Origin: Nocardia sienata NBRC 100364
Lineage (GTDB): Bacteria; Actinomycetota; Actinomycetes; Mycobacteriales; Mycobacteriaceae
DNA: 64,000 bases
Direction of reading: 5' to 3'
NCBI RefSeq assembly: GCF_001613205.1
Contig: NZ_BDBX01000003.1
Coordinates: forward strand, 310,001-374,000
The first letter of the stretch is position 1; every line of letters begins with the position of its first letter. Positions 4,977 to 48,706 of this stretch are shown here, piece by piece. A program made the translations under genes and the position numbers. Under the pieces are notes generated by a model that was not told the origin of the DNA, ran no database searches, and worked only from the letters and a program-made list of their open reading frames with translations.

Positions 4977-5204
4977 ATGGCATTGGCGAACCAGCGCACC
5001 GATATCCCCGTGACCATCGACGAATCCCTGTGTATCGAGGGTTGCACGCTGTGTGTCGAGATCTGCCCGCTCGACTCCCTGGCCATCAACCCCGAGAACG
5101 GGAAGGCCTTCATGCACGTCGACGAATGCTGGTACTGCGGGCCCTGCGCCGCCCGCTGTCCCACCGGCGCCGTCACTGTCAACATGCCGTATCTCCTGAG
5201 GTAG
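4977..5204 (+). CDS. 2x[4Fe-4S] ferredoxin, AprB-like
   Basis: Small iron-sulfur electron carrier, 75 residues, with two cysteine clusters: C-IEG-C-TL-C-VEI-CP near residue 15 and CWYCGPCAARCP near residue 44. The CW-C-x2-C-x3-CP-x-GA(V/I) pattern of the second cluster resembles the beta subunit of adenylylsulfate reductase, which partners a flavoprotein alpha subunit. The last gene of this operon encodes an AprA/FrdA-type flavoprotein, so the two are a likely redox pair. The ATG directly abuts the gntR stop, and the substrate-binding protein starts 7 bp downstream. Confidence 0.85.
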   Translation: MALANQRTDIPVTIDESLCIEGCTLCVEICPLDSLAINPENGKAFMHVDECWYCGPCAARCPTGAVTVNMPYLLR

Positions 5205-5211
5205 ACCTCTC

Positions 5212-13900: not shown

Positions 13901-16900
13901 TTCACATGGCAGTCGTAGCGAAAGAAGCACAGGCGCGTACCACCGTGTTCCCCGTGACCGTCGATATGGATATCGAAGGTCAGTGTCTCCCCGGGTTCCG
14001 GTGGGCTGCCGTGGAAGGTGACCTCACAGCCGAGCAGCCGGTACACCCGCTCGCCGCGGTTGATCAGGTCGATACCCATCCAGCTGATCAGCAGCAGATC
14101 CGCCTGCCCTGCTTCGATCATCAGGCCGGCGGGCATCCGGCCGGCCGGATCGAGGTACCAACTGTCGGTGGTGACGTCGGTCTGGGTGTGGATCGTTCCG
14201 GTGCCCAGGCGCCCCGGCTCGGCGTCGATACCGGTGACGCGGTCGGCGAGCAGCATCGGTGGTGCCGGCATGCGCACCTGCCGGCGGAATCCGTCCTGAG
14301 CCCGGAACAACGGGCCGAAAACAGCCGAGACGGGTCCGGTGGCCAGGGCTTCCAGCTGGGCCCGGTCGAACGACGGCAGCCGCCGCGACGCCACCGGGTC
14401 GCCCGGCGCGGCCCGGCCGGCGGTCCCCGCAGCACCGGCCGCGGTGAAAACGCTCCTTTCAGAAGGAATAGTCGGCGGCACCGGAACACTCGTTCCGGTG
14501 CCGCGCAGCGTCGCGCGCAACAATAATTCCTGTGCGTATCCGGTCACTGCCAGATAGCGCCGGTGCGCTGCGGCCCGCTCTTCGAGGTGCTGTCGATGCA
14601 CTAGTGCGACCTCGGCGAGCAGGACGTTCGCCGGGATATCGGGGACCGGTGCCGCAAGGAGGTGTGTGGTCGGCGGCGCGGCGTCGACAGGAGCGACCGG
14701 GGATACGACGCGAGTGGGGAGAGGCACCGGTGGTAGAGCCGGAGCGGGTCCCATCGTCTCCGCGGGCAACAGTTCGGGCAGGGTGATCGGCGGCGGGTGT
14801 GCGGCGACACGAATGCACCGATCCGTGTGCGAGGCCGTGGTATCCACGGCACCCAGCCGCTCGAGGAGGTCGGTGTAATGCGCCTCGACACCGGCCGCAC
14901 GCAGTTCACCGAGCGCTCGGACCAGGCTGCGCTGCGCGCGACCGTCCGCGGAGTCCAGCGCGACGGCCACATGATCGCGGTCACCGAGGATCTGGGAGAT
15001 CCAGCCGGTGCACAACGCACGCGGACCGTGTTCGATGAAGACCCGGACGCCGTCGGCCCACGCCTTCTCCACCGTGGCCACGAAATCGATCGTGCCCACT
15101 GCCTGCTCGGTGATCGCGTCCGCGGCGGCCTTCCGCGACATGGTGTAGGACGATGCGCTCGCACAGGAATAGAAGCGAATCCCGGGCACGTCGGTGGTCG
15201 GCCGGTCGTGCAGCCGCCACCAGGCGTCCCGCACCTGCTCGACTTCCGGGATATGTACGGCGATGTCGTAGCCGAGCGGCAGCGCGGGTGCCCCGTCCAG
15301 CCTGGACAGCACGCGGGCACAGCTCCCGGCTTCCCCGCCGATTACGCACGTTCGCGGCGCGCTGATCGCCATGAGCCGAACGGTGGGCTCCCCGTCCAGC
15401 GCCGCGCGCACGGTGTCGGCGTCGGCGCTGACGAGGTAGCTGGTCCACCGGCCGTCCGCGATCCCGTGTTCGCGCCAAGCCCGGCGCACGATATCGAGGT
15501 CGCCGGCCACCTCCCGGGTGAACAGCGGTGACCGTTGGGCGTCGGCGACCAGCCGTGGCACCTCGTCCCATGCCCCCATCGCCACGAGGGAATTGGTCTC
15601 GCCGGACGAGTAGCCCAGCACCGCCACCGGTTCGAGGCCGAGGATGCCGCGGGTCAACTCCGTATGGAACTGGCCGAGCAGGGACGCACCCCAGATCTGA
15701 TCGAGCACATGAGTCGGGTCCGCGCCGTCCCCTGTGTAGGCCCAGCCGGCGAAATCACGGAGCGGACCACAGCGGCGTGCCAATCGACCGACGATTTCCG
15801 GGAAGGCCAGCAGTACATCCCGGCCCATCCGGGGATAGCATGCGGAACCGTTGGTGTAGACGAACGCGACCTCGCCGTCGATCGGCCGGTCCCGGAAGGA
15901 GACACCCTCCGGACGTACGCCGCGCTTTTCGAGCCAGCGGGCCGCGCCCGCGAGGCGGGCCGCGAGTTGGTCCGCGTCCGCGGCCGCGACGACCAGCCGA
16001 GCGGGACCGTGGTCCGCTTCGGTTCCGGCGCGAGCTGCGGCGAGCGCGCCGTGCATATCGGTGCCGGAGTATATGTATTGGCGCACTGTGGGTTCCGTGG
16101 TCCACGGCACGACTTCGGCAGCGGTCAGCATGGTGACGGCGGGGGTGGTACCGAGCGTTCGGACGGCGACGGTGGCCTGCCGGATGCCCAGTGCCGGATC
16201 GGCGGTACGGCCCGCCCTGGGTACGGCACCATGGCGCAACGCGACGGTCGCGCAGGCAACCGCCAGCAGGCCCTTCGCCGCATGTGGGGCACCGAAGAGC
16301 GCGGCCGGGTCGAACCATTCGCTGTGCGCATCATCGGCCGGCGGCACATCCCCGACAGCCAAACCACCCGGTGCGCCGGAGTCCGCGACGATGGCGAGCA
16401 GCTCGTCGCCGTCGCGGCGGGCATCGGCGGCTCGTTTGAGGATGAGCACGACCGCCGCATCACCCGGTTCGGTGTCGATACCCACTTCGTGCGCCGCGCT
16501 GCGATGGACCGGTTCGTGCGACAGGTCCACCGCCCCCACGAGCACCGCGTCCGCCGAACCGTCGCGCAGTGCCCGGCAACCCAGCTCCAACGCGACGAGG
16601 CCGGACGCTTCTTCGGCCGAGACCGTGAAGCCGGGCCCGGACAGATCGAGATGGGAGTTGATCCGGTTGGCGACGATATTGGGCATCGTGCCCAGTACCG
16701 CGGGGGCGGCCAGCGGCGCGGCGAAGGCATCGGCGACAGGTTCGCGCACACCGACTTCCGCGCAGTGCGCGGCAACCCGCACCCGGGCCGGATGGCGGGC
16801 GACCTCGGCATCGCAACCCATACCGATCAGCACCGTCGTCCGCTCCCGCGGCAAACCGACGCGGCCCGCGGCCTCCCGGGCGGCCTCCAGAACGGCGACC

Positions 16901-18446: not shown

Positions 18447-21400
18447 CTAACCGGCGATATCTGGCCGGGCGATGAGCCGGACCCCACCCAGTTCGAACAG
18501 TGGGTGCCCATCCGTCGCGCAGACCTGGACATCGCAGTGGGCTTCGCTGCGTCCCGCCGTCCGGCCGGCACGGACGATCACTCGCGCCGCGCCGTCGAGC
18601 GGACCGGGGACGAACAGGCGGAACTCCGCGACTCCCATGGGTAACACGGCGGTCCCGAGTACGTGTTCGGCCCACAGCGTCGCCAATTGCAGTGCTCCGT
18701 CGACCGCGGCCGGGTCGGTATACCGGTGGGCCTGTGGCCAGTTCCGCTCGCGGGTACCGGTCACCACGCCTGCCGCCCCGGCCGGGGCGACACCGTCGAT
18801 ACCGGTGAGAACCTGAAACGCGGGTCCGTGGAAGAGTACTTTCCCGTCGTAGGTGTCCCGGCCCAGCGGACGCAGACCGGTCGGTTCGGTCCACCGATGC
18901 GGCGCGGTGTCGGACACGGTCGCCCGCGCCCGGAAATGCGGGCGACCCGCCCGTCCGGATACGGTGAGCAGCAGTGTGCCTACCGGGTCCGGACGATCGG
19001 CCACGAGCCGTAAAAGCGTGGTGCGCGCCGCGAAATCGTCGAGCGCGATCTTGCTCAGCACTTCGAGGCCGGACAGGGTGAGAGTGCCGTCCGGCAGCGC
19101 GGCCCGCGCGGCCCCGGTGAACCACTCGAGTACCAGTGCCACCGGCACCACCGGCACCTCGCCGATCCGGTGATCGAAAAGGTACTCGTGGTCGCGGGCC
19201 GTCAAGGCCAGGTCTCCGCCGGCCCCGCGAGCATCGGCCGCGTCCGGGTGTCCCGCCGCCCGCACCACACAGACGGGTCCGCCTTCCTCGCTCAACTCCT
19301 CGACGAAGGCCGCGGCCCCATCCGCCGGTGATATCAGGGGGATACCCGCGGCACCGAAGTGCGCGGCGAGGGTTTCGTCCACCATGCCGCCGTCCCAGGG
19401 GCCCCAGGCGATAGCCCGCACCGAGCAGCCCGGCCGCCTGCGCTGTTGGATCGCCGCGAGTTGTGTGATCACCTCGTTCGCCATGGCGTAATCGCTCTGG
19501 CCGGCGTTGCCGTAGCACGCTGACACCGAGGAGAACACGCACAACAGTTCGAGCGGATCGTCGTCGACCGCGGTGAGCAACGAACGCAGTCCGCCGACCT
19601 TCGTCTCGAAGACCCGGTCGAACTGCTCATCACTCTTGTCACCGATCGTTTTGTCGGCGAGCACACCCGCGCCGTGTACGAGCCCGGTGACGGGCCCCCA
19701 TTCGGCGCGGATACCGGCCAGGGCGATGCGCACGGCTTCGGTGTCGGTCACGTCCACGGTCACATAACGCACCGGGGAGCCGGCGGTTTCCACCGCACGG
19801 AGCGTTTCGCGGATCTCCCGGGCCGCCATGGCCGCGCCCACCTCGGCCCGGATGCGCCGGGGATCGGGTGTGGTGCCCTCGGCCCGCAAGTGTGCTATGA
19901 CGGCTTCCCGGACCGCCGTCTCGTCATATGCCGCGGACAGCCAGGCCGGTTCGTCGGTGAGCGGTGTCCGGCCGAGGAGAACCAGCTTCGGCGCAGCGGC
20001 CCGGGCGAGCGCCCGGACGGCCGCAGCGGTGACCCCGCGTGCCCCACCGCTCACCACGATCACCGAATCCGGCCCGACCGCCGGTCCGGTTGCCCGGTTC
20101 GGCGCGACCTGAACGGTTTCCAGTACCGTGCGCGTGCCGTCCACGGCCAGGCCGACGTCGGTCGCGGTGCCGCCACCGAGCAGTTCTCCCGCGATCGCCC
20201 GCGCGATATCGGCGTCGGTGCCGCCGCGGGCATCGCAGTCGATCGCCTTCACGGTGACGTCGGGCCACTCCCGCCCGGCCGTCCGCGCCAAAGCGGCCAG
20301 ACCGGTCGGGGCCGGTGCGATCCCGGACAGGCCGAAGTCGCCTCCGGTGTCCTGGACGGTGACGAAGAACGCGGGCCCGGCGCTGCGCTCGGTAGCGAAG
20401 GACCGCGCCAGCCGGAAAGCGTCCCGGTCGGCGGTGAGCGCCGCGTCCACAGTGGGTGCCGTGCCGAGCATGCCGAGGTGGATCAGGCCATGGATATCGG
20501 CACTGGGTCCGGGGGCCACGCGGGCATCCACTCCGGATTCGACCAGTTCTTTCGCGAGCAGGTCGGCGATACCGGGCGTCCCGCCGGTGATGGCCACCCG
20601 GCTGCCCAGCAGACCGGGCAGTGCGAGCCCCGGCGCTACGCGCGGAGTCGGCCGGATCGTCAGCCGCAGCGGCGGCATACCGGCGTCGTCGAGGAAGGTT
20701 TCCGCCGGCAGCGCGCCGGCCATGGGTACGAGGGGTGCCGGGAGATCGTCGGGCGGTGGTTCGCCCGCCGGAAGGGTCGCCTCCGCCGAATCCTCGGCGC
20801 CGAGCAATCCGGCGACCTGCGCCAGGGTCCGCGCCGAACCCAGAGTGACCGCGTCCACTTCACGAATACCGGGGAAACGCTCCCGCACCGCCGACAGAAT
20901 CTCCACCCGTTTGATCGAATCGATACCGAGATCCGATTCCAGCTCCATATCCACATCGAGCACATCTGCGGGATAGCCGGTCTTTTCCGCCACCACCGCC
21001 AGCAGACCGGCCACATCCACCGAGGTGGGGGAGTCCGGCGACGGCGCCGGTACATCGGCCGGCGACGGCTGCGGGCTACGGATTTCGGGTGCGGCGGGAG
21101 GGATATCGGGAGCGGCCGGCATCGGCTCGGCCCGAGGCAGTTCGCGTGCGATCGCGGCCGGCCCGGGGGTGCCGTTCGCCGTCGGCGGGCGGTGGGCCGG
21201 CGCGGCGGTTCCGTACATCACCGAAGGAAGAGGAGCCGGCGTGGTCGTTCCACTCGTCAGGTGCTGGTGCGTCGGCGCGGCCGCCGGTGGCGGAAACGCC
21301 GAGGCGGCCGTTCCGCCCGCGAGCTGGACCAGCGCGGCTTCCGACATGCGCAGAAACGCCAGATGGGATTCCGTCATCGTCCGCTGGTAGGCGCTGTGGG

Positions 21401-24400
21401 CTTCGCCGGCGAGCCGTTGTGTTTCGCGTAGCGCATCGAGCCATTCGGAACCGCTCGCGGCGGGCCGGCTCGGCGCGGGCGCCGGTACGGGCCCATGGCC
21501 GGCCGGCGGTGAGACGAATCCGTCGCGGTATGCCGGCGATACGGATTCGTCCTGGGTCGCCGGTGGCGCGGTCCAGCCGCCGGCCGCCCCGGTAACCGCG
21601 GCGTCTGCCGGCACCGCGTGTTCGTTACCGGCCGGCGGTGCCGACGTGGGCGGGTTCGGTGGGGGCAGAGCGGCCGAGCCGCCCGCCGGTGGGTAGGGCT
21701 TGCCGTAGTTGGCGCCGAGCAAGTTCACGGCTGCCGGCGACGGCTTGCTGCTCACTTTGTCCTCCTCCGGTTGTAGGTCGTAGGCGCTCCACAATGCTGT
21801 GAATTCCATGCGCAGACCCCCGACGGCCAAGCGCGCCAAGGCATCGGGCAGGTTGTCCGCCCCGCGGGCCGCGCGGTCGAGGCTCACCGCCAGGTGCTCG
21901 CGTCCGGCAAGAACCTCACCCGCCAGCCGGGTGAGCGTCGCGCCCGCACCCACCTCGATGAACGTCCGGATCCCGGCCGTGTACATGGCTTCGATCTGAT
22001 CGACGAATCGGACCGGGACCGCGAGCTGCTCGGCCAGACCGGCCCGCACCGCGTCCGGATCGGCCGGATACGGTTCGCCGCGGGCGTTGCCGTACACCGG
22101 AATGCGCGGGGCCCGCACGGCAAGAGAGTCGAGGGTTTCCCGCAACGGCGCGGCCGCGGCGGCGACGAGCGGGGTGTGAAACGCGCCCGCCGCCGCGACG
22201 CGGCGTACGGTGTGCCCGGCCGCGGCTGCCTGCCGTTCGAACGCGGCCACCGCGCTCAGCGCACCGGAAACGACGACCTGTCTGGGCGCGTTGTGGTTGG
22301 CCACCCACAATCGGCTGTCTGCGGCGGATTCGACCAACGCCCGAACTTCCGCGAGGGTGCCGACCACCGCGACCATGGCACCCGGCTCGGTCGCGGCGTC
22401 TCGCATCAGTTCGCCCCGCCGGCGAGCCAGTTTCAACAAGGTCGCGTTGTCGAAGCATCCCGCCGCGTGCAATGCGACCAGCTCACCGAAACTGTGCCCG
22501 CCCAGAGCATCCGGCCGCACGCCGAGCGTATCCAGTAACGCGAGCGCGGCGAGGCTCTGCGCGGCGAGCGCCGGTTGCGCCCATTCGGTCTGTGTGAGCC
22601 GGGCTCGCTGCGCCGCGCGTTCCTCCTCGGTGAACGCCGGCGGCGGGAATACGACCCGATGCAGCTGCTCCTCGCCGGAGCGGTCCAGGGCCGCGACCGC
22701 ATCCCAGCTCTCCCGCGCGGCGGGCAACACCATGGCCAGTTCGGCGCCCATACCGATGTACTGGCTTCCCTGACCGGAGAACAGGAACCCGACCGGCCCG
22801 GGTTCGGCGACGTACGCGCCGTAGTACATCCCACCGGGGCCCGTGAACGATTCCGTGGGTTGCGCCGCGATCCGGTCTGCCGCCGCACCCAGTGTCGCCG
22901 CGAGATCGTCGGCGGTGACGACGACGCCGAGGCGGACGGCTGCCGCCGGATCGAAGGACTCCTGGGTCCTTCGTGCCACGGCGACCACTCCATCGGTCGT
23001 CTCGGCGAGTGAGCGGGCCGCGGCCACCAGCGCGGCCGGTGAGTCCGCGGACAGCAGTACCAGTTCGCTTCCCGCCGCGCGCAGCAGCGGGGCCGGGCGG
23101 GTCGACTGTTGCGTCGGCGTGTATTCCTCGAGCGTGACGTGAAAGTTCGTGCCACCGAATCCGAAACTGGACACGCCGGCCCGCCGCGGATGGCTGCCGT
23201 CGCTGATCCACGGCCGCGCCGCCGTGTTCAGATAGAACGGGCTGTCGTGCAGTTCGAGCGCCGGGTTGGGCCGATCCACTTTGATGGTCGGTGGAAGGAC
23301 TCGATGGTGCAGTGCGAGCGTCGCCTTGAGCAGCCCGGCCGCGCCCGCGGCGTTCTTGGTATGTCCGACCTGTGATTTCACCGACCCCAGCGCGCACCAT
23401 CCGGTGTCGGCGCGGCCGGTCTCACCGAATACCGTCCGCAGGGCGGCGACCTCGGCCGCGTCACCCGCGGCTGTGCCGGTTCCGTGCGCCTCGACCAGCT
23501 CGACCGTGTCCGGGCCGTAGCCGGCCATCGCGTAGGCACGCCGCAGCGCTCGTGCCTGTCCGGTGGACCGGGGCGCGTAGATGGCGCCACCACGTCCATC
23601 GGATGCCGTGCCTATACCCCGGATCACTGCGTAGACCGGGTCGCCGTCGCGTTCGGCTTCGGCCAGCCGCCGCAGTGCGAACATCACCACGCCCTCACCG
23701 AGGATCATGCCGTCGGCGTCCGCGGAAAAGGGGCGGCAGTCCCCGGTCGGCGAGAGCGCAGGGGTCTTACTGAACGAGGTATAGGTGACCGGATCGTTCA
23801 AGGTGTCCACACCACCGGCCACCACGAGATCGGCCTGGCCGAGCGCGAGCTCGTTGATCCCACTCGACAGCGCCGCCAAGGAACTCGCGCAGGCGGCGTC
23901 GGTGGTGTAGTTGCTGCCGTGCAGGTCGAACCGGTTCGCGATCCGGCCCGCGACGACATTGCTGAGCATGCCGGGCAGGCTCCCCTCCTGCCACGGCACG
24001 TAGTGCTCGGCGATCCGGTCGCAGATCTGCAGGGCTCGGTCCTCGGGGATACCGCTCTCGCGCAGCGCGGCGAGCCACACCGGTCGCTCCATGCGCGCGG
24101 CCATCGTGGTCAACAGCTCCAACGCGGAGGTGCCGAGGACAACGCTGACCCGCTCCCGGTCCACACCCGACATCCGGTGCGGTTCGAGCGAGGACAGCAG
24201 GCGTTCGGCCACGACCAGCGCCAGCAGCTGACTGGTATCGGTGGCCTCGATCGCCTTCGGTGGGATACCGAAGGCCAGCGGATCGAACGGTACCGGTGAG
24301 AGGAAAGCCCCGCGCCGGGCATAGGTTTTGTCGGTCGCCGCCGGGTCGGGGTGGAAGTAGTCGTCGACGAGCCAGTGTGTCGCCGGGATATCGCTCACTC

Positions 24401-24518
24401 GATCGGCGCCGGAGACGACCGTTCGCCAGAACCCGTCCGCGCCGGGTTCTCCCGGGAGCACCGCGCTGACACCGACGATGGCGACCGGCGGTACGGTCCT
24501 GGCAGCACTCTCGGACAT
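18447..24518 (-). CDS. PfaA-like PUFA/secondary-lipid synthase: KS-AT-ACP-KR-DH
   Basis: 2023-residue iterative synthase. KS (1-465): Cys210 in TTDAACASSL, His345, His386. AT (575-870): GHSFG with Ser676 and GAFHT with His781, a malonyl-type motif. A long Pro/Ala linker (920-1165) leads to a single ACP with LGIDSIKR (Ser1201); marine PfaA usually has five or more tandem ACPs. KR (~1300-1755): SGGARGVTA nucleotide site, and S-Y-N in FSSVSACYGNAGQSDYAMAN (Tyr1677). The C-terminal DH has H1783 (FDHRIGEVPVVP) and D1940 (VDGALQ). The ATG at 24518 follows a GAAAGAAG site, 28 bp after the PfaD-like gene; an upstream open frame is antisense to nothing recognisable and was rejected. Confidence 0.88.
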   Translation of the reverse strand: MSESAARTVPPVAIVGVSAVLPGEPGADGFWRTVVSGADRVSDIPATHWLVDDYFHPDPAATDKTYARRGAFLSPVPFDPLAFGIPPKAIEATDTSQLLALVVAERLLSSLEPHRMSGVDRERVSVVLGTSALELLTTMAARMERPVWLAALRESGIPEDRALQICDRIAEHYVPWQEGSLPGMLSNVVAGRIANRFDLHGSNYTTDAACASSLAALSSGINELALGQADLVVAGGVDTLNDPVTYTSFSKTPALSPTGDCRPFSADADGMILGEGVVMFALRRLAEAERDGDPVYAVIRGIGTASDGRGGAIYAPRSTGQARALRRAYAMAGYGPDTVELVEAHGTGTAAGDAAEVAALRTVFGETGRADTGWCALGSVKSQVGHTKNAAGAAGLLKATLALHHRVLPPTIKVDRPNPALELHDSPFYLNTAARPWISDGSHPRRAGVSSFGFGGTNFHVTLEEYTPTQQSTRPAPLLRAAGSELVLLSADSPAALVAAARSLAETTDGVVAVARRTQESFDPAAAVRLGVVVTADDLAATLGAAADRIAAQPTESFTGPGGMYYGAYVAEPGPVGFLFSGQGSQYIGMGAELAMVLPAARESWDAVAALDRSGEEQLHRVVFPPPAFTEEERAAQRARLTQTEWAQPALAAQSLAALALLDTLGVRPDALGGHSFGELVALHAAGCFDNATLLKLARRRGELMRDAATEPGAMVAVVGTLAEVRALVESAADSRLWVANHNAPRQVVVSGALSAVAAFERQAAAAGHTVRRVAAAGAFHTPLVAAAAAPLRETLDSLAVRAPRIPVYGNARGEPYPADPDAVRAGLAEQLAVPVRFVDQIEAMYTAGIRTFIEVGAGATLTRLAGEVLAGREHLAVSLDRAARGADNLPDALARLAVGGLRMEFTALWSAYDLQPEEDKVSSKPSPAAVNLLGANYGKPYPPAGGSAALPPPNPPTSAPPAGNEHAVPADAAVTGAAGGWTAPPATQDESVSPAYRDGFVSPPAGHGPVPAPAPSRPAASGSEWLDALRETQRLAGEAHSAYQRTMTESHLAFLRMSEAALVQLAGGTAASAFPPPAAAPTHQHLTSGTTTPAPLPSVMYGTAAPAHRPPTANGTPGPAAIARELPRAEPMPAAPDIPPAAPEIRSPQPSPADVPAPSPDSPTSVDVAGLLAVVAEKTGYPADVLDVDMELESDLGIDSIKRVEILSAVRERFPGIREVDAVTLGSARTLAQVAGLLGAEDSAEATLPAGEPPPDDLPAPLVPMAGALPAETFLDDAGMPPLRLTIRPTPRVAPGLALPGLLGSRVAITGGTPGIADLLAKELVESGVDARVAPGPSADIHGLIHLGMLGTAPTVDAALTADRDAFRLARSFATERSAGPAFFVTVQDTGGDFGLSGIAPAPTGLAALARTAGREWPDVTVKAIDCDARGGTDADIARAIAGELLGGGTATDVGLAVDGTRTVLETVQVAPNRATGPAVGPDSVIVVSGGARGVTAAAVRALARAAAPKLVLLGRTPLTDEPAWLSAAYDETAVREAVIAHLRAEGTTPDPRRIRAEVGAAMAAREIRETLRAVETAGSPVRYVTVDVTDTEAVRIALAGIRAEWGPVTGLVHGAGVLADKTIGDKSDEQFDRVFETKVGGLRSLLTAVDDDPLELLCVFSSVSACYGNAGQSDYAMANEVITQLAAIQQRRRPGCSVRAIAWGPWDGGMVDETLAAHFGAAGIPLISPADGAAAFVEELSEEGGPVCVVRAAGHPDAADARGAGGDLALTARDHEYLFDHRIGEVPVVPVALVLEWFTGAARAALPDGTLTLSGLEVLSKIALDDFAARTTLLRLVADRPDPVGTLLLTVSGRAGRPHFRARATVSDTAPHRWTEPTGLRPLGRDTYDGKVLFHGPAFQVLTGIDGVAPAGAAGVVTGTRERNWPQAHRYTDPAAVDGALQLATLWAEHVLGTAVLPMGVAEFRLFVPGPLDGAARVIVRAGRTAGRSEAHCDVQVCATDGHPLFELGGVRLIARPDIAG

Positions 24519-24546: not shown

Positions 24547-26091
24547 TTACACGAGTCGTCGGGGCGCGAAATCGAACGCGGTCGACGGCACCGGCACCCC
24601 ATACGTACGCAGCTGGTGCGCCCTGGTGAGTACGGCCGCGCCCTCCAGCAGATTGCGGGCGACCTGCACGGCGTGGCGCTGCGCGGGGTCGGCCAGGAAG
24701 CTGCCCGCCACCCAGTCGTTGAACGCGCCGACCGCCGGTCCACACCACAACTGGTAGTCGGCGCACCGGGAGTCATCCCCCTCGATCGCCCACCAACTGG
24801 ACCGGCCCAGATACCAGCGGAAAACCAGTGCCATGCGGTGCTTCGGTTCGGTGTCGGCACGAGCGACCTCGGTGGGATCGCGGTCGAGCCAGTAACGGCG
24901 CGTTCGATCCCAGATCTCGGCGAGCGACGCCCGGAAAATCGTCCGCTCCAGTTTGTCGCGTTCCGGCGCGGGAATCGCTTCGAGCGACTCGAAGTCCCGA
25001 TAGAGCTCGTAGAGCAGGTTGGCGCGGTTACCGAAGAGCGTGCCGCGGCGCAGCACCTGCACCTTCACGCCGAGTTCGAACATATCCGACGCGGGTGCCA
25101 TGATCACATCCGCAATATCCGCCTGCGCGAGTAGCTGCTTGGCCGCCGCGGACACCCCTGCCTCGACACAGGTCTGGTTGACCGACCCGGTCACGACGTA
25201 GGCGGCCCCGGCCGCGAACGCCGCCGCCATGCTGTGCGGGGTGCCGATACCACCGGCCGCGCCGATCCGCACGAGGCGCTGGTACCCGGCTCGTTCGGCG
25301 ACCCGCGCCGCGAGGGAGAGTATCCGCGGCAGCAGCGATACCAGCGGCCGGTTGTCGGTGTGTCCGCCGCTGTCGGCCTCGACGGTCAGGTCCTCGGCCA
25401 CCGGAACGTGCGCGGCCAACTCCGCCTCGGTGGCGGTGAGCCGGCCCTGCGCGCACAGCATGGCCACTATGTCCGGAGGCGCCGGCGACAGGAACTTCTC
25501 GGCGACCTCGGGCCGCGAGACCTTGGCGAATACCTGCCGGGGGCGGACGATACGGCCGTCCGGATCGAGGCGTAGCCCGCTCGTGGCGAGTTGCACCACC
25601 GGTGGCGTCAGCTCCATGAACGCGGACGCGGACACGGTGGGAACACCTTCCCGGATGAGCAGATCCGCCATACCTTGTTCCCACTCCGGATGCTGCGGCG
25701 CGTGGATGAGATTCACACCCCAGTTCGTCCGGCTGCCCAAAGCCGCCCGGATCATGACGATGGCCTGCTCCACCCGCGGCAGAGACAGGCCGGCGGCGCC
25801 GAAAAAGCCCAGCATATCGGCCTTGCCCATGGCGACAACCAGATCCACCGTCGCGATGCCGTTGGCCATTTCCCCGGCCACATAGGGAAACCGAGTGCCG
25901 TGCCGTTCGTTGAACGACCGGTCACCCAGCCATTCGGGGTACAGCGGCGGCAGGGTCGCGAGTACCCGATGCCCGCCGGGCTCGCCCGTCATCGCGGTGA
26001 TCCCACCCTCGGGCTCGGCCACGACGTGCACTTGTTCCCGTATCCGCCGAACGACCTGCTCGAGCGGCATCGGGTGCAGCGACGCGGTCAC
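24547..26091 (-). CDS. pfaD: PfaD-like FMN enoyl reductase
   Basis: 514-residue FMN-dependent TIM-barrel enoyl reductase of the 2-nitropropane-dioxygenase-like fold that acts in trans with PfaA/PfaC, reducing selected enoyl-ACP intermediates. Diagnostic segments are GADML-type GKADMLGFFGAAGL, the histidine site TVEADSGGHTDNRPL, and the FMN phosphate site GAAGGIGTP...AYVVTGSVNQ. The length is typical of PfaD. The GTG at 26091 is preceded by GGAGGCGGC at good spacing and overlaps the stop of a 42-residue ORF; an ATG seven codons later (26070) is the alternative. The assignment depends on its motifs and on sitting between the synthase genes. Confidence 0.9.
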   Translation of the reverse strand: MTASLHPMPLEQVVRRIREQVHVVAEPEGGITAMTGEPGGHRVLATLPPLYPEWLGDRSFNERHGTRFPYVAGEMANGIATVDLVVAMGKADMLGFFGAAGLSLPRVEQAIVMIRAALGSRTNWGVNLIHAPQHPEWEQGMADLLIREGVPTVSASAFMELTPPVVQLATSGLRLDPDGRIVRPRQVFAKVSRPEVAEKFLSPAPPDIVAMLCAQGRLTATEAELAAHVPVAEDLTVEADSGGHTDNRPLVSLLPRILSLAARVAERAGYQRLVRIGAAGGIGTPHSMAAAFAAGAAYVVTGSVNQTCVEAGVSAAAKQLLAQADIADVIMAPASDMFELGVKVQVLRRGTLFGNRANLLYELYRDFESLEAIPAPERDKLERTIFRASLAEIWDRTRRYWLDRDPTEVARADTEPKHRMALVFRWYLGRSSWWAIEGDDSRCADYQLWCGPAVGAFNDWVAGSFLADPAQRHAVQVARNLLEGAAVLTRAHQLRTYGVPVPSTAFDFAPRRLV

Positions 26092-26216
26092 GACGCCGCC
26101 TCCGGCAGCACACGGCCCTCGGCAGGCATCGCACACACACCCGCGGTTCCGGGGTCGAAACGGATAGCGATGTCGTTGCCGGGTACTCGTGATATCGGGT
26201 TGCGGAGTGCCGTCAC
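26088..26216 (-). CDS. 42-residue coupled ORF between the fusion protein and PfaD
   Basis: A small ORF with start GTG at 26216 overlapping the stop of the heme-FAD-ACP-TE gene (GTGA) and a stop overlapping the GTG start of the PfaD-like gene (GTGA). A GGAGA ribosome site lies 8 nt before its GTG. The protein begins MTALRNPISRVPGNDIAIRF and ends in EGRVLPEAAS; it has no signal peptide or membrane segment, and two Pro/Gly-rich turns. I do not recognise a family. Double coupling with no untranslated gap argues that it is translated, at least as a ribosome bridge; whether the peptide has a function is open. Confidence 0.55.
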   Translation of the reverse strand: MTALRNPISRVPGNDIAIRFDPGTAGVCAMPAEGRVLPEAAS

Positions 26217-29200
26217 AGGGTGGTCTCCGATAGTGCCCACCGCCTGCCCGTGAGCACTTCGCGCAGTGCGTCGGCCAACTCGCCCACCCGGGCCTCGGAG
26301 AGAATGGTGAAATGGTTGCCGGGCACATCCACTATCCGGAACCGGCCGGTCCGCACCGTGTCCCAGCCCTGGGCCGGGTCGCCGAGCGGTACCCGGGGGC
26401 CCCGCTCCGGGCCGAAGACGATCGGAAACGCGCCCTCGGCCCGCAGCAGGGTGACGGGCAGGTCCGATCGTGGTGGCCGGTAGCGGACGTTCGCTTCGAG
26501 GTTCGCCTGGTACACCCGCAGGATGAACTCCAACTGACGGCGGGCGCCGCTGCCCCGGCTCCTGGTCAACTCCTGACATACCGCGTCGCGCCGCTGTTCG
26601 AGCGGCAGCTCGGGATCGAGGACCAGCTCGTTCCCCGTCGCACCGGCCGCCGCCCGCAACATCGCCGCCAGCTCGTCCAAGGCGGCGCGCTCGTCCCAGG
26701 GGGGTGTGGATTGGCCGGCCAGCGGAACGTAGGTATCGATCAGCACGACCTCGCCGACCTTCTCCCCGGCAGCGCGCAGCCGACAGGCCGTCTCGTAGGC
26801 GATCAATCCGCCGAGCGAATATCCACCGAGCAGATACGGCCCGTGTGGCTGCACCGCGCGGATATCCCGGAGATAGCGCTGCGCAAGCGCCTCCACCGTG
26901 TTCAGGGTCGGTTCCGCTCCGTCGTGACCGGGCGCCTGCAGCGCGGTGAACGGCCACCACGGGCCTAGGGCAGCGGCCAGCGTCCGGAACTGGTAGGCGA
27001 TGCCGTTCACGCCGGGTATGCAGAAGAAGGGGCGTGGCGGCGTCAACGGAACGGCCAGCAGCGGGACCGGCGCCGCGGCGGAGGCGGTATTCGGTGCGGC
27101 GGGAACCGCCTCGGCCAGCCGTCGCGCCGCGTCCTCGATCGTCGGGTTCTCCAGCAGGATCGTGGGGTGCACCCGGCAGCCGAGCCACGCGGAGAGATCC
27201 AGGTGCAGCGCGGCGACGGCCAACGAATCGAGGGCGAAATCATCCAGAGAGGCCGCCGGGTCGATCTCGGCTTCGGCCAATTCGAACTCCCTGGCCAGCC
27301 GGCCGACCAGCCATGCGCTGATCTCCGCGGCAGTGCGACCGGGAACGGGGGCATGCCCACCGTCCGGGCCGGATACCTCCTCGCTGTCTTCAGGGGCGAA
27401 ATGCCTGGTGACCAGGTCGCGTGCGTGCGCGATCGTCGTTTCGATCATCTCGAAGCCGAGTAGCCCGCCCACATGGTAGGTCCGGCGAACGCCCTGCCGT
27501 CCCTCGAACTTGTCGTAGACACCTTCGGCCAGATCCGCACTCGCGAAATGCGGGAAGTACGGCCAGCGCCGCACGAGTAGCACCTCGGTCACCGCACCAC
27601 CGAACCCGATCACATCGTCGCGCAGGTTCGCCACGATATCGTCGGGTCCCAGACCGTCGGCACCGTAGGAGTAACAGATGTATACATCGGTCCCGGGGTA
27701 CCGGTGATGGAAGGAAACGCAATGCCCCGGACCGGGGCTGGCGTCCCCGGACCGCACGGTGTAGTGCCCGTCGCGGGGTAACCCGGTGATCCGGCACAGC
27801 ACGGTATAGAAGTCCAGGCGCCGAATCCGCCGGGCGAGCGCGCGCTCGGCCAGCGACATGTCCAGAACACCATCGAGCCGATCGAGGGGGACGGCCAGCA
27901 CGAGGTCATCGGCATGTACGGTCCCGCCGTCCGCGAGTCGTACGGACACGCTGTCACCGCGGCGGTCGATCGAGGTGATCTCGACACCGGTCCGCACATC
28001 GGCCAGCTTCGCCGCGATACGTTCCCACAGTGCGCCGAGGCCACCGGCGATCGTGAACGCGTTGGCGTGGCGGGTACGGGTCGGCTCGACCGACAGCTGA
28101 CTCACCGTCTCCGAGACCTTGAGAAAATACAGGGCGGGCAGATCGTCGGTGAGGTAGCCGTATCCGGCCGAGGTGTACACGGCTCCGAGAGACGCGCCCA
28201 TCGCCTCGAGATCGTTGTCGCGCAGCCATTCTCGTGTCGGCACGGACAGGGCCCGGGCGGAGTGCGCCAAACCCGGACGGCCGATATCGGGAAAGGTCTC
28301 GGCGCGCAGCCGCATATACCGTCCGACGACGTCACGGGTGGCGAACGCCGTCTTGGGCATCGCGGCCGTGAAGGTCTGCGTATCGAAGATGTGCGGGGCG
28401 ATGATGTCCTCGGTATCCAGGCCGAATTCGTCGGCGAGGGCGATGACGTGCTCGTACCGGTCATTGCACAGGTGCGCCCCGAGATCGTAGGCCCGTCCGT
28501 CGATCTCCACCGAGACCGACTTGCCACCCACCACCGGCTCCCGCTCGAGTACCACCACGGTGTGCCCGAGCCGCTCGAACTCGTGCGCGGCCGCCAAGCC
28601 GCCCGGTCCGGCGCCGATCACACAGACGGTCCGGCCGCCTTCGGCGCCGTTCGCGACGCGCGGGGCGGACAGTGCGGGGGAACCGGTAGCGATGGGTTCG
28701 GGCCGGAAGGTTCGCGCGGCGTATCCGGCGCGGTAGACGAGGGCGCGGGCGTGATTCATCGACGCCGCTTCGAAAGGAGAACGAGCGAGCGCGATCCCGA
28801 GGCCCTGCGGGGCGTCCGCCGGATCGAACGGTAACTCGGCGGCGGGATCCTCCTCCGCTACCAGATCCAGACGCAGCTCACCGATTGTCCGGAACGGATA
28901 GGATGCCGCCGACCAGTCGGCGGACGGTGACAGCGCGGCCTGGTTCGCCGCGGCATCGTCACCGAGCGGATGCAATTGGATCTGGAACAACCCGCGCAGG
29001 GAGCCCTCCGAGGCCATGCGGCGGACCTCGTCACGCAACAAGGTCGACGAACGTCGTTCATCCGGCGCCCGCATCAACCGCTCGATCGGTGGCACCACCC
29101 ATCCCCGGGGCGTGTGGTGGCCGATATCGGGCATCTCTTCCCCGGGCACCAGCCGGTAACGCACCAACCAGGGTCTGCCTGTTCCGTCGACGTACTGCTG

Positions 29201-29731
29201 CGGCACCTGTGAGTTGAGGTGATAGCGGTGGTACGGATGTGGATCCCGGATCGCATCCAGCGCCGGCGCCAACGCTCCGGGGGTGGCACGAACGAGTTCT
29301 TCGCGCGCGGCGTCGTCGCGGAGCATGAAGAACTTCATGAATGTCCACGCGTTCGGGGCGAATACGCGATAGCCCGTGTTGAACGTCAAGTTGAACGGCG
29401 AATCGCCGGATCCGTCCGGATCGAACCAGCGCAGCGACAGCCCGCGGATTCCGGGGGCGAGGTCGTCACTGGATACACCGTTGCTGTACCGTGCCAGCAC
29501 CGGGTACCGCTTGCCTCCGCCGAAGAACGGGTGCACCGGCGTACCCGGGGCGTCGAAGAAGTCGATATGGCCGCGAACCACGATCCCGGGTGCGTGGAAG
29601 GTTCGGGTGCGGGTCAGTTTCCCCATCGCCGTCACCTGCGCGAACTCCGTCAGCAGTTGCTGGAAGTCGTCGTCGATATCGGCGAGCCGAGGATCGCTCG
29701 CGCCGGTGGAGAAGATCAGGCCACGACTCAT
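26213..29731 (-). CDS. Four-domain fusion: catalase-like heme domain, FAD fatty-acid isomerase-like domain, ACP, thioesterase
   Basis: 1172 residues. (1) 1-350: catalase-related heme fold with distal His46 (TFHAPGIVVRGH), RYSNG...PGIRGLSLRW, Asn118 (NLTFNTGYRVF) and the proximal R-x3-Y ligand motif RALVY (Arg329, Tyr333); the size matches small catalase-related and allene-oxide-synthase domains, not full catalases. (2) 368-780: FAD domain (VIGAGPGGLAAAHEFERLG). The segments AGYGYLTDDLPALYFLK, LVLAVPL, YFPHFASADLAEGVYDKFEG and ARDLVTRHF match, from memory, the Propionibacterium acnes polyunsaturated fatty acid isomerase. (3) 798-875: ACP, Ser836 in LDSLA. (4) 895-1172: alpha/beta-hydrolase thioesterase, GYSLGG (Ser972) with a late His (PGNHFTIL). 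The ATG at 29731 overlaps the FAAL stop (ATGA). Confidence 0.85.
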   Translation of the reverse strand: MSRGLIFSTGASDPRLADIDDDFQQLLTEFAQVTAMGKLTRTRTFHAPGIVVRGHIDFFDAPGTPVHPFFGGGKRYPVLARYSNGVSSDDLAPGIRGLSLRWFDPDGSGDSPFNLTFNTGYRVFAPNAWTFMKFFMLRDDAAREELVRATPGALAPALDAIRDPHPYHRYHLNSQVPQQYVDGTGRPWLVRYRLVPGEEMPDIGHHTPRGWVVPPIERLMRAPDERRSSTLLRDEVRRMASEGSLRGLFQIQLHPLGDDAAANQAALSPSADWSAASYPFRTIGELRLDLVAEEDPAAELPFDPADAPQGLGIALARSPFEAASMNHARALVYRAGYAARTFRPEPIATGSPALSAPRVANGAEGGRTVCVIGAGPGGLAAAHEFERLGHTVVVLEREPVVGGKSVSVEIDGRAYDLGAHLCNDRYEHVIALADEFGLDTEDIIAPHIFDTQTFTAAMPKTAFATRDVVGRYMRLRAETFPDIGRPGLAHSARALSVPTREWLRDNDLEAMGASLGAVYTSAGYGYLTDDLPALYFLKVSETVSQLSVEPTRTRHANAFTIAGGLGALWERIAAKLADVRTGVEITSIDRRGDSVSVRLADGGTVHADDLVLAVPLDRLDGVLDMSLAERALARRIRRLDFYTVLCRITGLPRDGHYTVRSGDASPGPGHCVSFHHRYPGTDVYICYSYGADGLGPDDIVANLRDDVIGFGGAVTEVLLVRRWPYFPHFASADLAEGVYDKFEGRQGVRRTYHVGGLLGFEMIETTIAHARDLVTRHFAPEDSEEVSGPDGGHAPVPGRTAAEISAWLVGRLAREFELAEAEIDPAASLDDFALDSLAVAALHLDLSAWLGCRVHPTILLENPTIEDAARRLAEAVPAAPNTASAAAPVPLLAVPLTPPRPFFCIPGVNGIAYQFRTLAAALGPWWPFTALQAPGHDGAEPTLNTVEALAQRYLRDIRAVQPHGPYLLGGYSLGGLIAYETACRLRAAGEKVGEVVLIDTYVPLAGQSTPPWDERAALDELAAMLRAAAGATGNELVLDPELPLEQRRDAVCQELTRSRGSGARRQLEFILRVYQANLEANVRYRPPRSDLPVTLLRAEGAFPIVFGPERGPRVPLGDPAQGWDTVRTGRFRIVDVPGNHFTILSEARVGELADALREVLTGRRWALSETTL

Positions 29732-31482
29732 CGGGTGGCCGCCGCGGTGGGCCGGTCCTCGTTCTCCCGGCGCAGGAACTCCGCGCGGCACACGGGACGG
29801 CGGACCTTTCCGCTGGTCGTCTTCTGCACCAGTTTCGGGCCGACGAGCACTTCGTGGCAGGCGAGGCCGTGATCGTCGCGCACCCGACGGCGGACCGCGC
29901 GACGGATATCGGCGGCGGTGGCCTCGTCGAGTTCGGTGCCCGTGGTCTCGACGAGCACGATCAATCGCTCCGAGGCCGCACCGGGCAATGGCGGCACCGA
30001 GAAGGCGGCGATCCCGCCGGGACGAATCCGAGGATGCGCGGAGCGGACACTGGCCTCGATATCCTGCGGCGCGTAGTTGCGGCCGTGGACGATGACCAGA
30101 TCCTTCAGCCGGCCGGTGACGAACAGTTCGTCCTCGTGCAGGAAACCGAGGTCGCCGGTGCGCAGGTAGCGCCGCGGGTCACCGTCACCGACCACAGCGT
30201 GGAACGTTTCGCGCGTCTGTTCCTCGAGCGACCAGTAGCCGCGGGCCTTGGTGGGGGAATCGACCCAGATCTCCCCGATTTCCCGAGGCGCGCACGGCCG
30301 GCCGGTCTGCGGGTCGACGATGCGTAGCCGAGCGTCCGGTTTGGTGACCCAGCCGCTACCGTACAGAAGCACCGGTTCACGGCCGTCGTTCGCGGTGGCC
30401 GGCACGGCCCGGCCCTCTTCGAGTTGGTCACGATCGAAGGCCACGGCGCCTCCGCTGCCGACGGTGACACTGAGCGTGTGCTCGGCGAGTCCGTAGCCGG
30501 GATGGAATGCCTGCCGGGACGCGTCGCTGCATTCGAAAGCCGTGAAGAACGCCTCGACCGTCGACGCGAGAACGGTTTCCCCCGCGGTGCCGAACCTGCG
30601 CACCGAACTGAGGTCCCAGCCGGCGCGCTGTTGCGGAGTCGTCTTACGGACGATGAGGTCGTAGGCGAAGTTCGGCGCGGTGGTATGTGTGCCGCCGACC
30701 CGGGAGAGCACCTCGAACCAGATCGCCGGCCGCTGCAAGAAGTGCAGCGGTGAGATCAGGTAGGTGCGATCAGCGTTTCCGACCAGCGTGTTGAGCAGGA
30801 CACAGACCAGTCCGAGGTCATGGAAATGTGGTAGCCAGCTGACCGCGACGGTGTCGTCCCCGAGTTCGAAGTCGGCGGCGAGAGCGGCGAGTTCGTGGTG
30901 GATATTGCGATGGGTGACCACCACCCCCTTCGGCGAGCCCGTCGATCCCGAGGTGTACTGCAGGAAGGCCGGTTCGTCCGGATCGTTGGGCCGGTACCAG
31001 GAGCGAGGTGACTCGCCCGATCGGTCCGGGACATCAACGGGCCACAGCCAGGGCAGCTCCGGCCACTGTGCTCCCTCCGGTGGAAGCGGTACCGCATCCA
31101 CCATGGTGCGGTAGCCGGCGTGCGTCAGGATCGCCCGCGCACCGCAGTCCTGCGCGATACCCGATACCGCGCCGACTTCTTTCGCCAGGGCGAACGGGTT
31201 CGGCGGCGGGAGAGGAACCGGAATCACACCGGCGGCCAGGCAGCCGAGGAAGGCGACGATGAAATCCAACGAGGGCAGGTGCAGCAACAGCACCCGATCA
31301 CCGGGTTCCATCCCGGCTCGCCGCAACAGGGCCCGGACGTCTTGTGCTCGCTCCGCGAGCTGGTGGACCGTGAGGTGTTCGCCGTCGTGACCGTGCTCGT
31401 CGACGAAGACGAACAATGTGCGCCGCGGGTCTTCGGCATGGAGGGTGGCGAAAGCCGATACGACAGCGATTTCGGGCTCCAT
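29728..31482 (-). CDS. Fatty acyl-AMP ligase (FAAL, FadD-type)
   Basis: 584-residue acyl-adenylate-forming enzyme that activates a fatty acid as acyl-AMP and passes it to an ACP. The adenylation signature LQYTSGSTGSPKGVVVTHRN lies at residues ~174-193, the FAAL-type lid and insertion region around VSWLPHFHDLGLV and FLQRPAIWFEVLSR, YGLAEHTLS replaces the usual GxTE, and the late lysine is in KTTSGKVRRP. The length and absence of CoA-ligase features favour FAAL over FACL. It is the first gene of the 20-kb lipid operon, preceded by a GAAAGGATC ribosome site, and overlaps the fusion gene whose ACP domain is the most plausible acceptor. It probably supplies the starter chain. Confidence 0.88.
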   Translation of the reverse strand: MEPEIAVVSAFATLHAEDPRRTLFVFVDEHGHDGEHLTVHQLAERAQDVRALLRRAGMEPGDRVLLLHLPSLDFIVAFLGCLAAGVIPVPLPPPNPFALAKEVGAVSGIAQDCGARAILTHAGYRTMVDAVPLPPEGAQWPELPWLWPVDVPDRSGESPRSWYRPNDPDEPAFLQYTSGSTGSPKGVVVTHRNIHHELAALAADFELGDDTVAVSWLPHFHDLGLVCVLLNTLVGNADRTYLISPLHFLQRPAIWFEVLSRVGGTHTTAPNFAYDLIVRKTTPQQRAGWDLSSVRRFGTAGETVLASTVEAFFTAFECSDASRQAFHPGYGLAEHTLSVTVGSGGAVAFDRDQLEEGRAVPATANDGREPVLLYGSGWVTKPDARLRIVDPQTGRPCAPREIGEIWVDSPTKARGYWSLEEQTRETFHAVVGDGDPRRYLRTGDLGFLHEDELFVTGRLKDLVIVHGRNYAPQDIEASVRSAHPRIRPGGIAAFSVPPLPGAASERLIVLVETTGTELDEATAADIRRAVRRRVRDDHGLACHEVLVGPKLVQKTTSGKVRRPVCRAEFLRRENEDRPTAAATR

Positions 31483-31767: not shown

Positions 31768-33123
31768 TCACGCCTTCTGCCGGCGGCGGTACCGTACCCG
31801 GCACGGCTGCTGTAGTTGCACCACCATCTTCGAGTGATCGTTGCGGTATGACTCCGTCGGCTGCGCCATCTCGAATTCCCAGTCCCGCAGGAGAACCGAG
31901 AAGATCGCTTTGAGCTGCATCAGCGCGAACGCCGCGCCGACGCAGCGGTGCCGGCCCGCGCCGAATGGGATCCACGTCCATCGATTGACCAGGTCTTCCT
32001 GGTTGGGGTCGATATAGCGGCCGGGATCGAAACTGTCCGGGTTCGGGAAGTCCTCGGGTAGCCGGTTGGAGATCGCCGGGGTCGCCGCCACATGATCGCC
32101 GGGCTCGATCCGGTTCCCGCACACCTCGAACTCGCCCTGGGCCACGCGCATCAGGATGATGAGCGGGGGATGCAGCCGAAGCGTCTCTTTGAGAACCGCT
32201 TCCAGGCGCGGGATCTGGCGCAGCGCGTGGAAACTCACTTCCTGGCCGTCGGCGTAGAGTTCGTCGAGTTCCTTCACGACTCCGGACAGCACCTCCGGAT
32301 GCCGCAGCAATTCGATGACCGACCAGGCGGCGGTGCCCGAGGTGGTGTGGTGGCCGGCGAACATCATCGAGATGAAGATGCCGGTGACCTCGCTGGCACT
32401 GAAATGCGGTGTACCGTCCTCTTTCTGCACGGAGACCAGCACATCGAGCAGGTCGCGGTCCGCTTTGCCGGCGGGCGGGTTCGCGATGCGCCCGTTCATG
32501 ATCTCCTGGACGAGTTCGACCAGGGCCGCGCGGGATTCGTCGCGGATCCGGAAGCTTTCGATCGGCAGGTACGGGTCCACATACGCCAGCGCGTCGGTGC
32601 CGCGTTCCAGGTTGTGGTACAGATGCGCGAAGCGGCTGTCGAGTTCCTCGCGGAACTTCGTCCCGATCAGGCAGGCCGAGGAGGTGTAGATGGTGAGTTC
32701 GGCGAAGAAATCGAGCAGATCGATCTCGCCTTCCTCGTCCCAGCTCGCCAGCATCCGGTCGACCTCTTTTTCGATGGTCGCCGCGTGCCCGCGCATCTGA
32801 TCGCCGCGCAGCGCGGAGTTGTGCAGCATCTCCTTACGGCGTTCCGGGCTGGCGTCGAACACCACGCCTTCACCGAAGATCGGTTTCATGAAGGGGTAGG
32901 CGGCGGCTTGATCCAGTTCTTCGTCGGTGGCGCGGAAGAAGAACTCGTTCGCTTCGGCGCCGGTGAGCAGGACGACGTGGCGTCCGGCGAGGTCGAACCG
33001 GCCGACGTCGCCGCATTCCTGCCGGACCCGGCGCATCAGCGCGATCGGGTCGGTCCGGAATTCTTCGAGGTGGCCGTATTCGTGTTCGCCTCCGGACACC
33101 CGCGGCGGTTTCACCGAAGTCAT
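31768..33123 (-). CDS. cyp51: Cytochrome P450 CYP51, sterol 14-alpha-demethylase
   Basis: 451 residues, collinear with mycobacterial CYP51 from the N-terminal PRVSGG..HEYGHLEEFRTDPI to the end. Diagnostic features are the CYP51 B'-helix region YPFMKPIFGEGVVFD, the I-helix MMFAGHHTTSGTAAW (CYP51 has HT in place of the usual acid-Thr pair), ETLR (Glu313-Arg316) and the heme loop PFGAGRHRCVG with Cys394. It should demethylate sterols such as lanosterol or dihydrolanosterol in vitro; actinobacteria of this group do not generally make sterols, so the native substrate is unclear. In mycobacteria a ferredoxin gene follows cyp51; none does here. It is divergent from an SDR operon across a 185-bp region rich in GACAC half-sites. 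Confidence 0.93.
   Translation of the reverse strand: MTSVKPPRVSGGEHEYGHLEEFRTDPIALMRRVRQECGDVGRFDLAGRHVVLLTGAEANEFFFRATDEELDQAAAYPFMKPIFGEGVVFDASPERRKEMLHNSALRGDQMRGHAATIEKEVDRMLASWDEEGEIDLLDFFAELTIYTSSACLIGTKFREELDSRFAHLYHNLERGTDALAYVDPYLPIESFRIRDESRAALVELVQEIMNGRIANPPAGKADRDLLDVLVSVQKEDGTPHFSASEVTGIFISMMFAGHHTTSGTAAWSVIELLRHPEVLSGVVKELDELYADGQEVSFHALRQIPRLEAVLKETLRLHPPLIILMRVAQGEFEVCGNRIEPGDHVAATPAISNRLPEDFPNPDSFDPGRYIDPNQEDLVNRWTWIPFGAGRHRCVGAAFALMQLKAIFSVLLRDWEFEMAQPTESYRNDHSKMVVQLQQPCRVRYRRRQKA

Positions 33124-46315: not shown

Positions 46316-48706
<2,391 letters not shown>

Follow-up and report, generated by a model that had tools for sequence, protein, structure and literature searches.

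In a 64,000-nucleotide stretch of the Nocardia sienata NBRC 100364 genome (the window, part of contig 3 of an assembly of 6.84 Mb in 135 contigs), a single gene on the minus strand encodes a protein in which a predicted heme domain of the catalase fold, resembling the coral allene oxide synthase (cAOS), is joined to a flavin adenine dinucleotide (FAD) domain, an acyl carrier protein (ACP) and a thioesterase (TE). We propose, at about even confidence and from sequence, that this protein and the adjoining fatty acyl-AMP ligase (FAAL) load a polyunsaturated fatty acid (PUFA) onto the protein's own ACP, isomerise and oxidise it there, and then release it. The heme and FAD domains are referred to below as CAT and PAI, and the gene and its parts are laid out as follows.

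26213..29731, minus strand: CAT-PAI-ACP-TE four-domain protein, 1172 residues (ATG start, translation)
28697..29731, minus strand: CAT, predicted catalase-fold, cAOS-like domain, residues 1-345, with R43, F45, H46, R81, V86, N118, F131, R329, Y333 and R340
27392..28636, minus strand: PAI, FAD-binding domain, fatty acid isomerase / amine oxidase fold, residues 366-780 (2B9W match, Pfam Amino_oxidase)
27092..27334, minus strand: ACP, residues 800-880, phosphopantetheine site Ser836 (PP-binding, 7.9e-10)
26213..27031, minus strand: TE, alpha/beta thioesterase, residues 901-1172 (Thioesterase, 4.4e-35)

An initial annotation of the window had read this gene as a fusion of catalase-like heme, isomerase-like FAD, ACP and TE domains, and every part of that reading is upheld; the reading frame, its start and the positions of His46, Asn118, Arg329 and Tyr333 were reproduced by translation. 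The ATG is the likelier start because, as ATGA, it shares bases with the stop codon that ends the FAAL gene upstream; an alternative GTG at 29791 would lengthen the protein by 20 residues. The closest full-length relatives come from other Nocardia and share 96, 83 and 77% identity, kept along the whole protein, and the 16 other matches within the same genome are to the ACP/TE part or to FAD-site fragments. The four-domain gene is genuine, standing far above chance expectation. The annotation had named a hidden Markov model search as a check: Amino_oxidase/NAD_binding_8, PP-binding and Thioesterase all exceed their Pfam cut-offs in the window protein, and Pfam Catalase (PF00199) gave no match. 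Ser972, Asp999 and His1140, assigned by motif only, are the likely catalytic triad of the TE.

Although the Pfam catalase model is silent, residues 1-350 are supported by sequence and by the predicted model as a member of the catalase superfamily, nearer to cAOS than to the catalases, as had been claimed. This kinship rests on a phmmer match to cAOS (1U5U) over residues 43-334 (E value 3.6e-21), a profile search (4.4e-48), a fold comparison of the predicted model in which 1U5U was the closest solved structure to CAT (23% identity), and the relative P0017, which at 43% identity clears the Pfam Catalase model with 30.5 bits against a cut-off of 25. With the heme domain alone and E values admitted up to 10, Pfam returned DUF1780, weakly, and the margin of the neighbouring FAD domain; both were discarded, as were weak matches to PA4535 and to a type II secretion protein. 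Used alone as a query, the heme domain retrieved only three proteins. One free-standing relative of 52% identity (L062, in G1037, positions 16024-17046) adjoins a cytochrome P450 gene, and within the 30 kb inspected there no FAAL, PAI or ACP was found.

The cAOS heme-site residues given in PMC5617202, R64, R102, R360, the distal H67 and N137 and the proximal Y353, correspond to R43, R81, R340, H46, N118 and Y333 in CAT; R340 lies past the end of the phmmer match and was assigned from the family alignment. Tyr333 is predicted to be the iron ligand and His46 the acid-base residue. Across a wider alignment of 50 proteins, from whose counts P0050 and P0051 (no CAT) were set aside, R329 and Y333 are present in all 43 proteins reaching that region, H46 in 37 of 41 and N118 in 35 of 41. 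A second alignment, A1, keeps 40 of these proteins and omits P0010, P0019, P0021, P0023, P0029, P0042 and P0048-P0051; of those omitted, P0042 and P0049 have no distal His, and P0029 and P0049 have no ACP. In A1, R43 and R81 occur in 34/34 rows and R340 in 36/36. Retention of the His, Asn and Tyr of a catalase fold in most relatives, like the Pfam match of P0017, would also suit an ordinary catalase, which would shield the polyene or remove H2O2 and leave the fatty acid untouched, a role we consider very improbable.

Two further positions of CAT bear on substrate and product. K107 of cAOS, described in PMC5617202 as a lysine docking the free carboxylate of the substrate, is Val86 in CAT, and Lys is found in 0 of 34 A1 rows; its absence would fit a thioester-bound substrate. 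Residue 150 of the coral enzymes, Leu in cAOS and Phe in the lyase, steers the product according to PMC5617202, and its counterpart is Phe131 in CAT and Phe in 33 of the 34 A1 rows. The heme domain might then be a hydroperoxide lyase or an epoxyalcohol synthase that turns a tethered hydroperoxide into an aldehyde or epoxide and not into an allene oxide. We judge this improbable: the L150F exchange in cAOS gave no lyase according to that paper, the steering pair 176-177 lies where the family alignment and the numbering in the paper disagree, and no source of the hydroperoxide was identified.

The flavin domain (residues 368-778 in this comparison) matches the P. acnes isomerase 2B9W at an E value of 1.1e-34 (123 bits), collinear over the whole domain with 26% identity. 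The next match in the Protein Data Bank (PDB) is a monoamine oxidase (5.7e-12, 48 bits), and gamma-carotene desaturase matches in the nucleotide-binding part only (1.5e-6, 31 bits). With the full-length model as query, Foldseek ranked 2B9W first (E value 4.6e-30, TM 0.87 by target) and 1U5U second. On these scores a carotenoid-desaturase or protoporphyrinogen-oxidase identity was rejected; the domain goes with the P. acnes isomerase and not with the carotenoid desaturases, and the collinear match to which the initial annotation had pointed is found both in sequence and in fold. The P. acnes enzyme probably acts by hydride abstraction at a doubly allylic position. Stand-alone flavin relatives (L017, L026-L029 in G815 and G845, and P0072-P0129) are 46-51% identical to PAI, the named ones mostly from Streptomyces, and many of them carry the database names protoporphyrinogen oxidase or amine oxidase.

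Ser836 of the ACP is conserved in 40/40 A1 rows. The genes around the four-domain protein run along the minus strand in the order P450, FAAL, CAT-PAI-ACP-TE, PfaD, PfaA-type and PfaC-type, where KS, AT, KR, DH and CLF stand for ketosynthase, acyltransferase, ketoreductase, dehydratase and chain length factor.

31768..33123, minus strand: separate cytochrome P450 (p450, 1.2e-64; Cys motif FGAGRHRCVG)
29728..31482, minus strand: FAAL, fatty acyl-AMP ligase (AMP-binding, 7.2e-64)
24547..26091, minus strand: PfaD-type enoyl reductase (TIGR02814, 643 bits, cut-off 449)
18447..24518, minus strand: PfaA-type PUFA synthase subunit, KS-AT-ACP-KR-DH (Pfam; single LGIDS motif)
10930..18435, minus strand: PfaC-type subunit with a KS, a second KS-like (CLF) part, an AT-like part and FabA-type DHs (Pfam and motifs)

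The top NCBIfam match of the FAAL is a fatty-acid--AMP ligase model, which is below its cut-off, as are all 25 matches listed. In the PfaC-type subunit the Pfam ketoacyl synthase N-domain occurs in two stretches and FabA in four, and the acyltransferase match, at 25.8 bits, is below the cut-off of 32.7. By Pfam, TIGR02814 and motifs, PfaD, PfaA (KS-AT-ACP-KR) and PfaC (KS-CLF-DH-DH) type genes stand together as in a pfa cluster; the initial annotation had described a PUFA-synthase-like operon. The PfaA-type protein has no tandem ACPs, only one ACP motif and one PP-binding stretch. In that of G1112 (L058, 3300-6000) there are several successive matches to the ACP part, so that it likely carries tandem ACPs in place of the single ACP of the window. 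A tblastn search with the window P450 returned only P450s of 25-27% identity, in 2 of the 7 other full loci, and a third full locus, G965, has a Pfam p450 gene by its FAAL. A divergent gene at 33309-34205 for a short-chain dehydrogenase/reductase (SDR) had been a candidate member of the cluster, and tblastn found no close relative of it beside other full loci. Because neither gene has close relatives there, the P450 is listed as a likely accessory and the SDR is left out.

Searches of genome sets returned 33 distinct places, of which 22, window included, were inspected for gene order; among these were all 8 places where the match spans CAT and PAI. FAAL is directly upstream in 8/8 of these CAT+PAI loci, the window being one. 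PUFA synthase genes occur in five (the window, G600, G1182, G1184 and G1112) and were not seen in G805, G965 and G1447, and a TE domain is present in exactly the five that hold PUFA synthase. In G965, where the TE is absent, a separate gene for a 4HBT-type thioesterase follows immediately downstream, and the P450 gene lies beyond the FAAL. Of 13 places with PAI and no CAT, FAAL adjoins in 8 and a P450 follows the TE in 7, and four (G845, G815, G1052 and G1039) have neither FAAL nor P450. The one remaining inspected place, G1037, has CAT alone.

A protein search with CAT-PAI-ACP-TE returned 65 relatives. Domain order was examined in 71 proteins, comprising that of the window, 49 of the 65 relatives and 21 of 105 from a flavin-domain search; P0052-P0067, which are NRPS- or PKS-type matches (non-ribosomal peptide and polyketide synthases) made through the ACP/TE part, lie outside this set. 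CAT and PAI occur together in 43 of the 71, two of which (P0045 and P0047) hold only the CAT end. All named holders among the 49 relatives belong to actinobacterial genera, namely Nocardia, Amycolatopsis, Pseudonocardia, Saccharopolyspora, Streptomyces, Lentzea, Streptomonospora, Nocardiopsis, Actinorugispora, Actinospica and Sphaerisporangium. The loci are rare and patchy, as few of the genomes drawn gave a match: in sets that overlap, and with matches to CAT+PAI, to PAI without CAT and, in one case, to CAT without PAI all counted, we found 1/151 in the family (E value 1e-60), 1/150 in the genus (1e-30), 4/397 in the order (1e-30) and 5/394 in the class (1e-60), and, at 1e-80, 18/278 in the family of G600, 6/246 in the G815 genus (each with PAI and no CAT) and 3/100 in the family of G965. 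A contig scan of genomes gave one 52-residue Mesorhizobium match, judged spurious.

Other architectures were met in this family. P0048 and P0049 are single chains, FAAL-CAT-PAI-ACP and FAAL-CAT-PAI respectively, and G1112 and P0014/P0015 carry CAT plus a C-terminal P450. When CAT is mapped on a flavin-domain tree (70 domains, several long branches leaving parts unsure), a minimum of 9 gains or losses is required, 7 of them forced by well-supported branches. Together the relatives look like a core of FAAL and flavin-ACP that has gained, lost or exchanged a heme domain of the cAOS-like or P450 kind.

How the protein might work follows from these parts. The PUFA synthase would build a chain with 1,4-diene units; the FAAL would adenylate the acid and then load it onto Ser836; the flavin domain would abstract a hydride at a doubly allylic carbon to give a conjugated diene or polyene; the heme domain, with its predicted Tyr333 ligand and His46 acid-base, would oxygenate the chain or rearrange its hydroperoxide; and the TE would hydrolyse off an oxylipin-like acid. 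In relatives that lack TE or PUFA synthase, the loaded fatty acid would have a different origin and release would fall to a separate enzyme. Both catalytic folds point to PUFA chemistry because their closest solved structures, cAOS and an isomerase that forms conjugated linoleic acid, act on PUFAs. A tethered substrate is suggested by the ACP on the chain and the FAAL adjoining in every full locus inspected, and a fatty acid made and released on site by the PUFA synthase and TE of the window locus. All three are arguments from association and inference. The initial annotation had placed isomerisation and/or oxygenation on the ACP; the layout of domains and genes supports this well, with the ACP serine in all 40 A1 rows and FAAL upstream in all 8 loci, and the chemistry itself stays a prediction.

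Several observations weigh against this proposal. In the heme domain, cAOS Thr66 is replaced by Phe45 (F in 25, L in 7 and M in 2 of 34 A1 rows), the Phe45 position is Ala and Gly in P0048 and P0049, and the distal His is replaced by Phe or Tyr in four relatives (P0039, P0040, P0042 and P0049). With Thr66 replaced, K107 absent and no hydroperoxide source identified, the label 'allene oxide synthase' is too specific for CAT. Nor was a source of H2O2 identified for the heme domain; searches of this genome with the lipoxygenase (PF00305) and animal-type heme peroxidase (An_peroxidase, PF03098) models gave no match, but the controls were equally silent, so that these searches decide nothing. P0029 and P0049 show no ACP. 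Many relatives, to judge from the at least nine changes of the CAT label on the PAI tree, work without CAT. The shared absence of TE and PUFA synthase may reflect descent, and its coincidence is weak because G805, G965 and G1447 all belong to family f31 and G805 is on a 19.7-kb contig. The full-length model (mean pLDDT 84.0) yields no confident packing of the domains (pTM 0.47). Loss throughout the family of P. acnes Arg88, which we take to be the carboxylate anchor of the isomerase, had been considered as an argument for tethering and was dropped as alignment-dependent: in one alignment the window has Ala445 in this column and in a second His447, and in the second Arg is found in 22/49 fused and 58/62 stand-alone proteins.

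The flavin chemistry may also differ from that of the P. acnes enzyme, because its Ile61 is replaced across the family by a histidine, His420 in the window (47/49 fused, 62/62 stand-alone and 6/8 outgroup rows). It is conceivable, though on balance unlikely, that the two domains form a coupled oxidase-peroxygenase, in which a flavin oxidase or desaturase would introduce double bonds and at once reduce O2 to H2O2, which the heme domain would use to epoxidise or hydroxylate the tethered chain. In a further reading, rather unlikely in our estimate, the flavin domain takes the place of the coral or cyanobacterial lipoxygenase on an ACP-bound PUFA. Hydride would be removed at the doubly allylic carbon; O2 would then trap the pentadienyl cation or the reduced flavin, so that a hydroperoxide or H2O2 results, and not a plain return of the double bond, and the heme domain would turn either into an allene oxide, an epoxide or a cleaved aldehyde on the ACP. 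If true, this lipoxygenase-free route would unite oxylipin making and polyketide-style carrier chemistry in a single assembly line.

More generally, a fatty acid held on an ACP and acted on by an isomerase fold and a cAOS-like heme fold would, if the proposal is right, be a different solution to oxylipin synthesis, spread across several actinobacterial genera. The PUFA synthase and FAAL offer an assignable starting unit and the TE would let the product be collected, which would give a handle on the products of orphan actinobacterial PUFA synthases and on new heme chemistry with ACP-bound substrates.

Elsewhere in the window, plus-strand genes at 4194-10902 encode a GntR regulator, a substrate-binding-like protein (by eye), a permease and a 900-residue flavoprotein with C-terminal HEAT repeats, a fusion that looks unusual. 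A 796-residue ABC ATPase (46316-48706, plus strand; ABC_tran, UvrA-like by eye) adjoins a protein of the Pfam Beta-lactamase family (48715-50250). Two long open reading frames lie side by side on the plus strand, one (51917-53701) with no Pfam match at 1e-8 and the other (54654-56486) with an acyl-CoA oxidase C-alpha1 domain as its sole Pfam match. The minus-strand frame at 58467-63998, open to the window end, encodes an NRPS protein in which condensation, PP-binding and thioesterase domains accompany two AMP-binding stretches.

The initial annotation knew of no described example of such a fusion. A search of the open-licence full-text literature, in which subscription papers are mostly outside coverage and which is therefore no proof, likewise found no description among the matches listed, and the word catalase is absent from the main text of PMC3098273, PMC13291983, PMC12964715 and PMC4035055; the protein is not, however, a one-off, as fusions of this kind form a family among actinobacteria. 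The folds are known ones in an architecture for which no description was found, set outside cAOS by two residues (Thr66 and Lys107) and by the partner domain. Among the nearest parallels is the allene oxide synthase-8R-lipoxygenase of Plexaura homomalla (1U5U, 3DY5), which also has an N-terminal catalase fold of the cAOS kind, with the heme-site residues that CAT retains, followed by an enzyme of a class that attacks doubly allylic PUFA carbons. The window protein differs in its FAD isomerase-type partner in place of a lipoxygenase, in carrying ACP and TE on the chain, and in Thr66 to Phe, K107 to Val and an identity of 23%. A catalase-lipoxygenase fusion is also known from the cyanobacterium Acaryochloris, according to PMC11719350. 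The polyunsaturated fatty acid isomerase of Cutibacterium (Propionibacterium) acnes (2B9W) is collinear with the FAD domain, and no other PDB entry matches that domain better in sequence or in fold; the P. acnes enzyme occurs as a protein of its own, acts on free linoleate and has Ile61 where the window has His420; isomerase activity of the window domain is predicted only. The catalase-related protein of Mycobacterium avium paratuberculosis (3E4W) is a single chain of 320 residues and matches CAT less well than does cAOS. For other Nocardia, predicted pfaA-type clusters with two ACPs and no known product are described in PMC4035055. The window shares PfaD, PfaA-type and PfaC-type genes with the pfaABCD PUFA synthases and secondary lipid synthases, and is unlike them in its single ACP motif, in the AT-like part within the PfaC-type protein and in the added FAAL and CAT-PAI-ACP-TE. 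To our knowledge, a lipoxygenase, dioxygenase or P450 opens the known oxylipin pathways, whose substrates are fatty acids that are free or esterified in lipids. In the furan fatty acid pathway the flavoprotein UfaD makes a diene in an acyl chain and an oxygenase then inserts oxygen; it uses separate proteins, phospholipid chains and a different oxygenase, and resembles our proposal in its logic.

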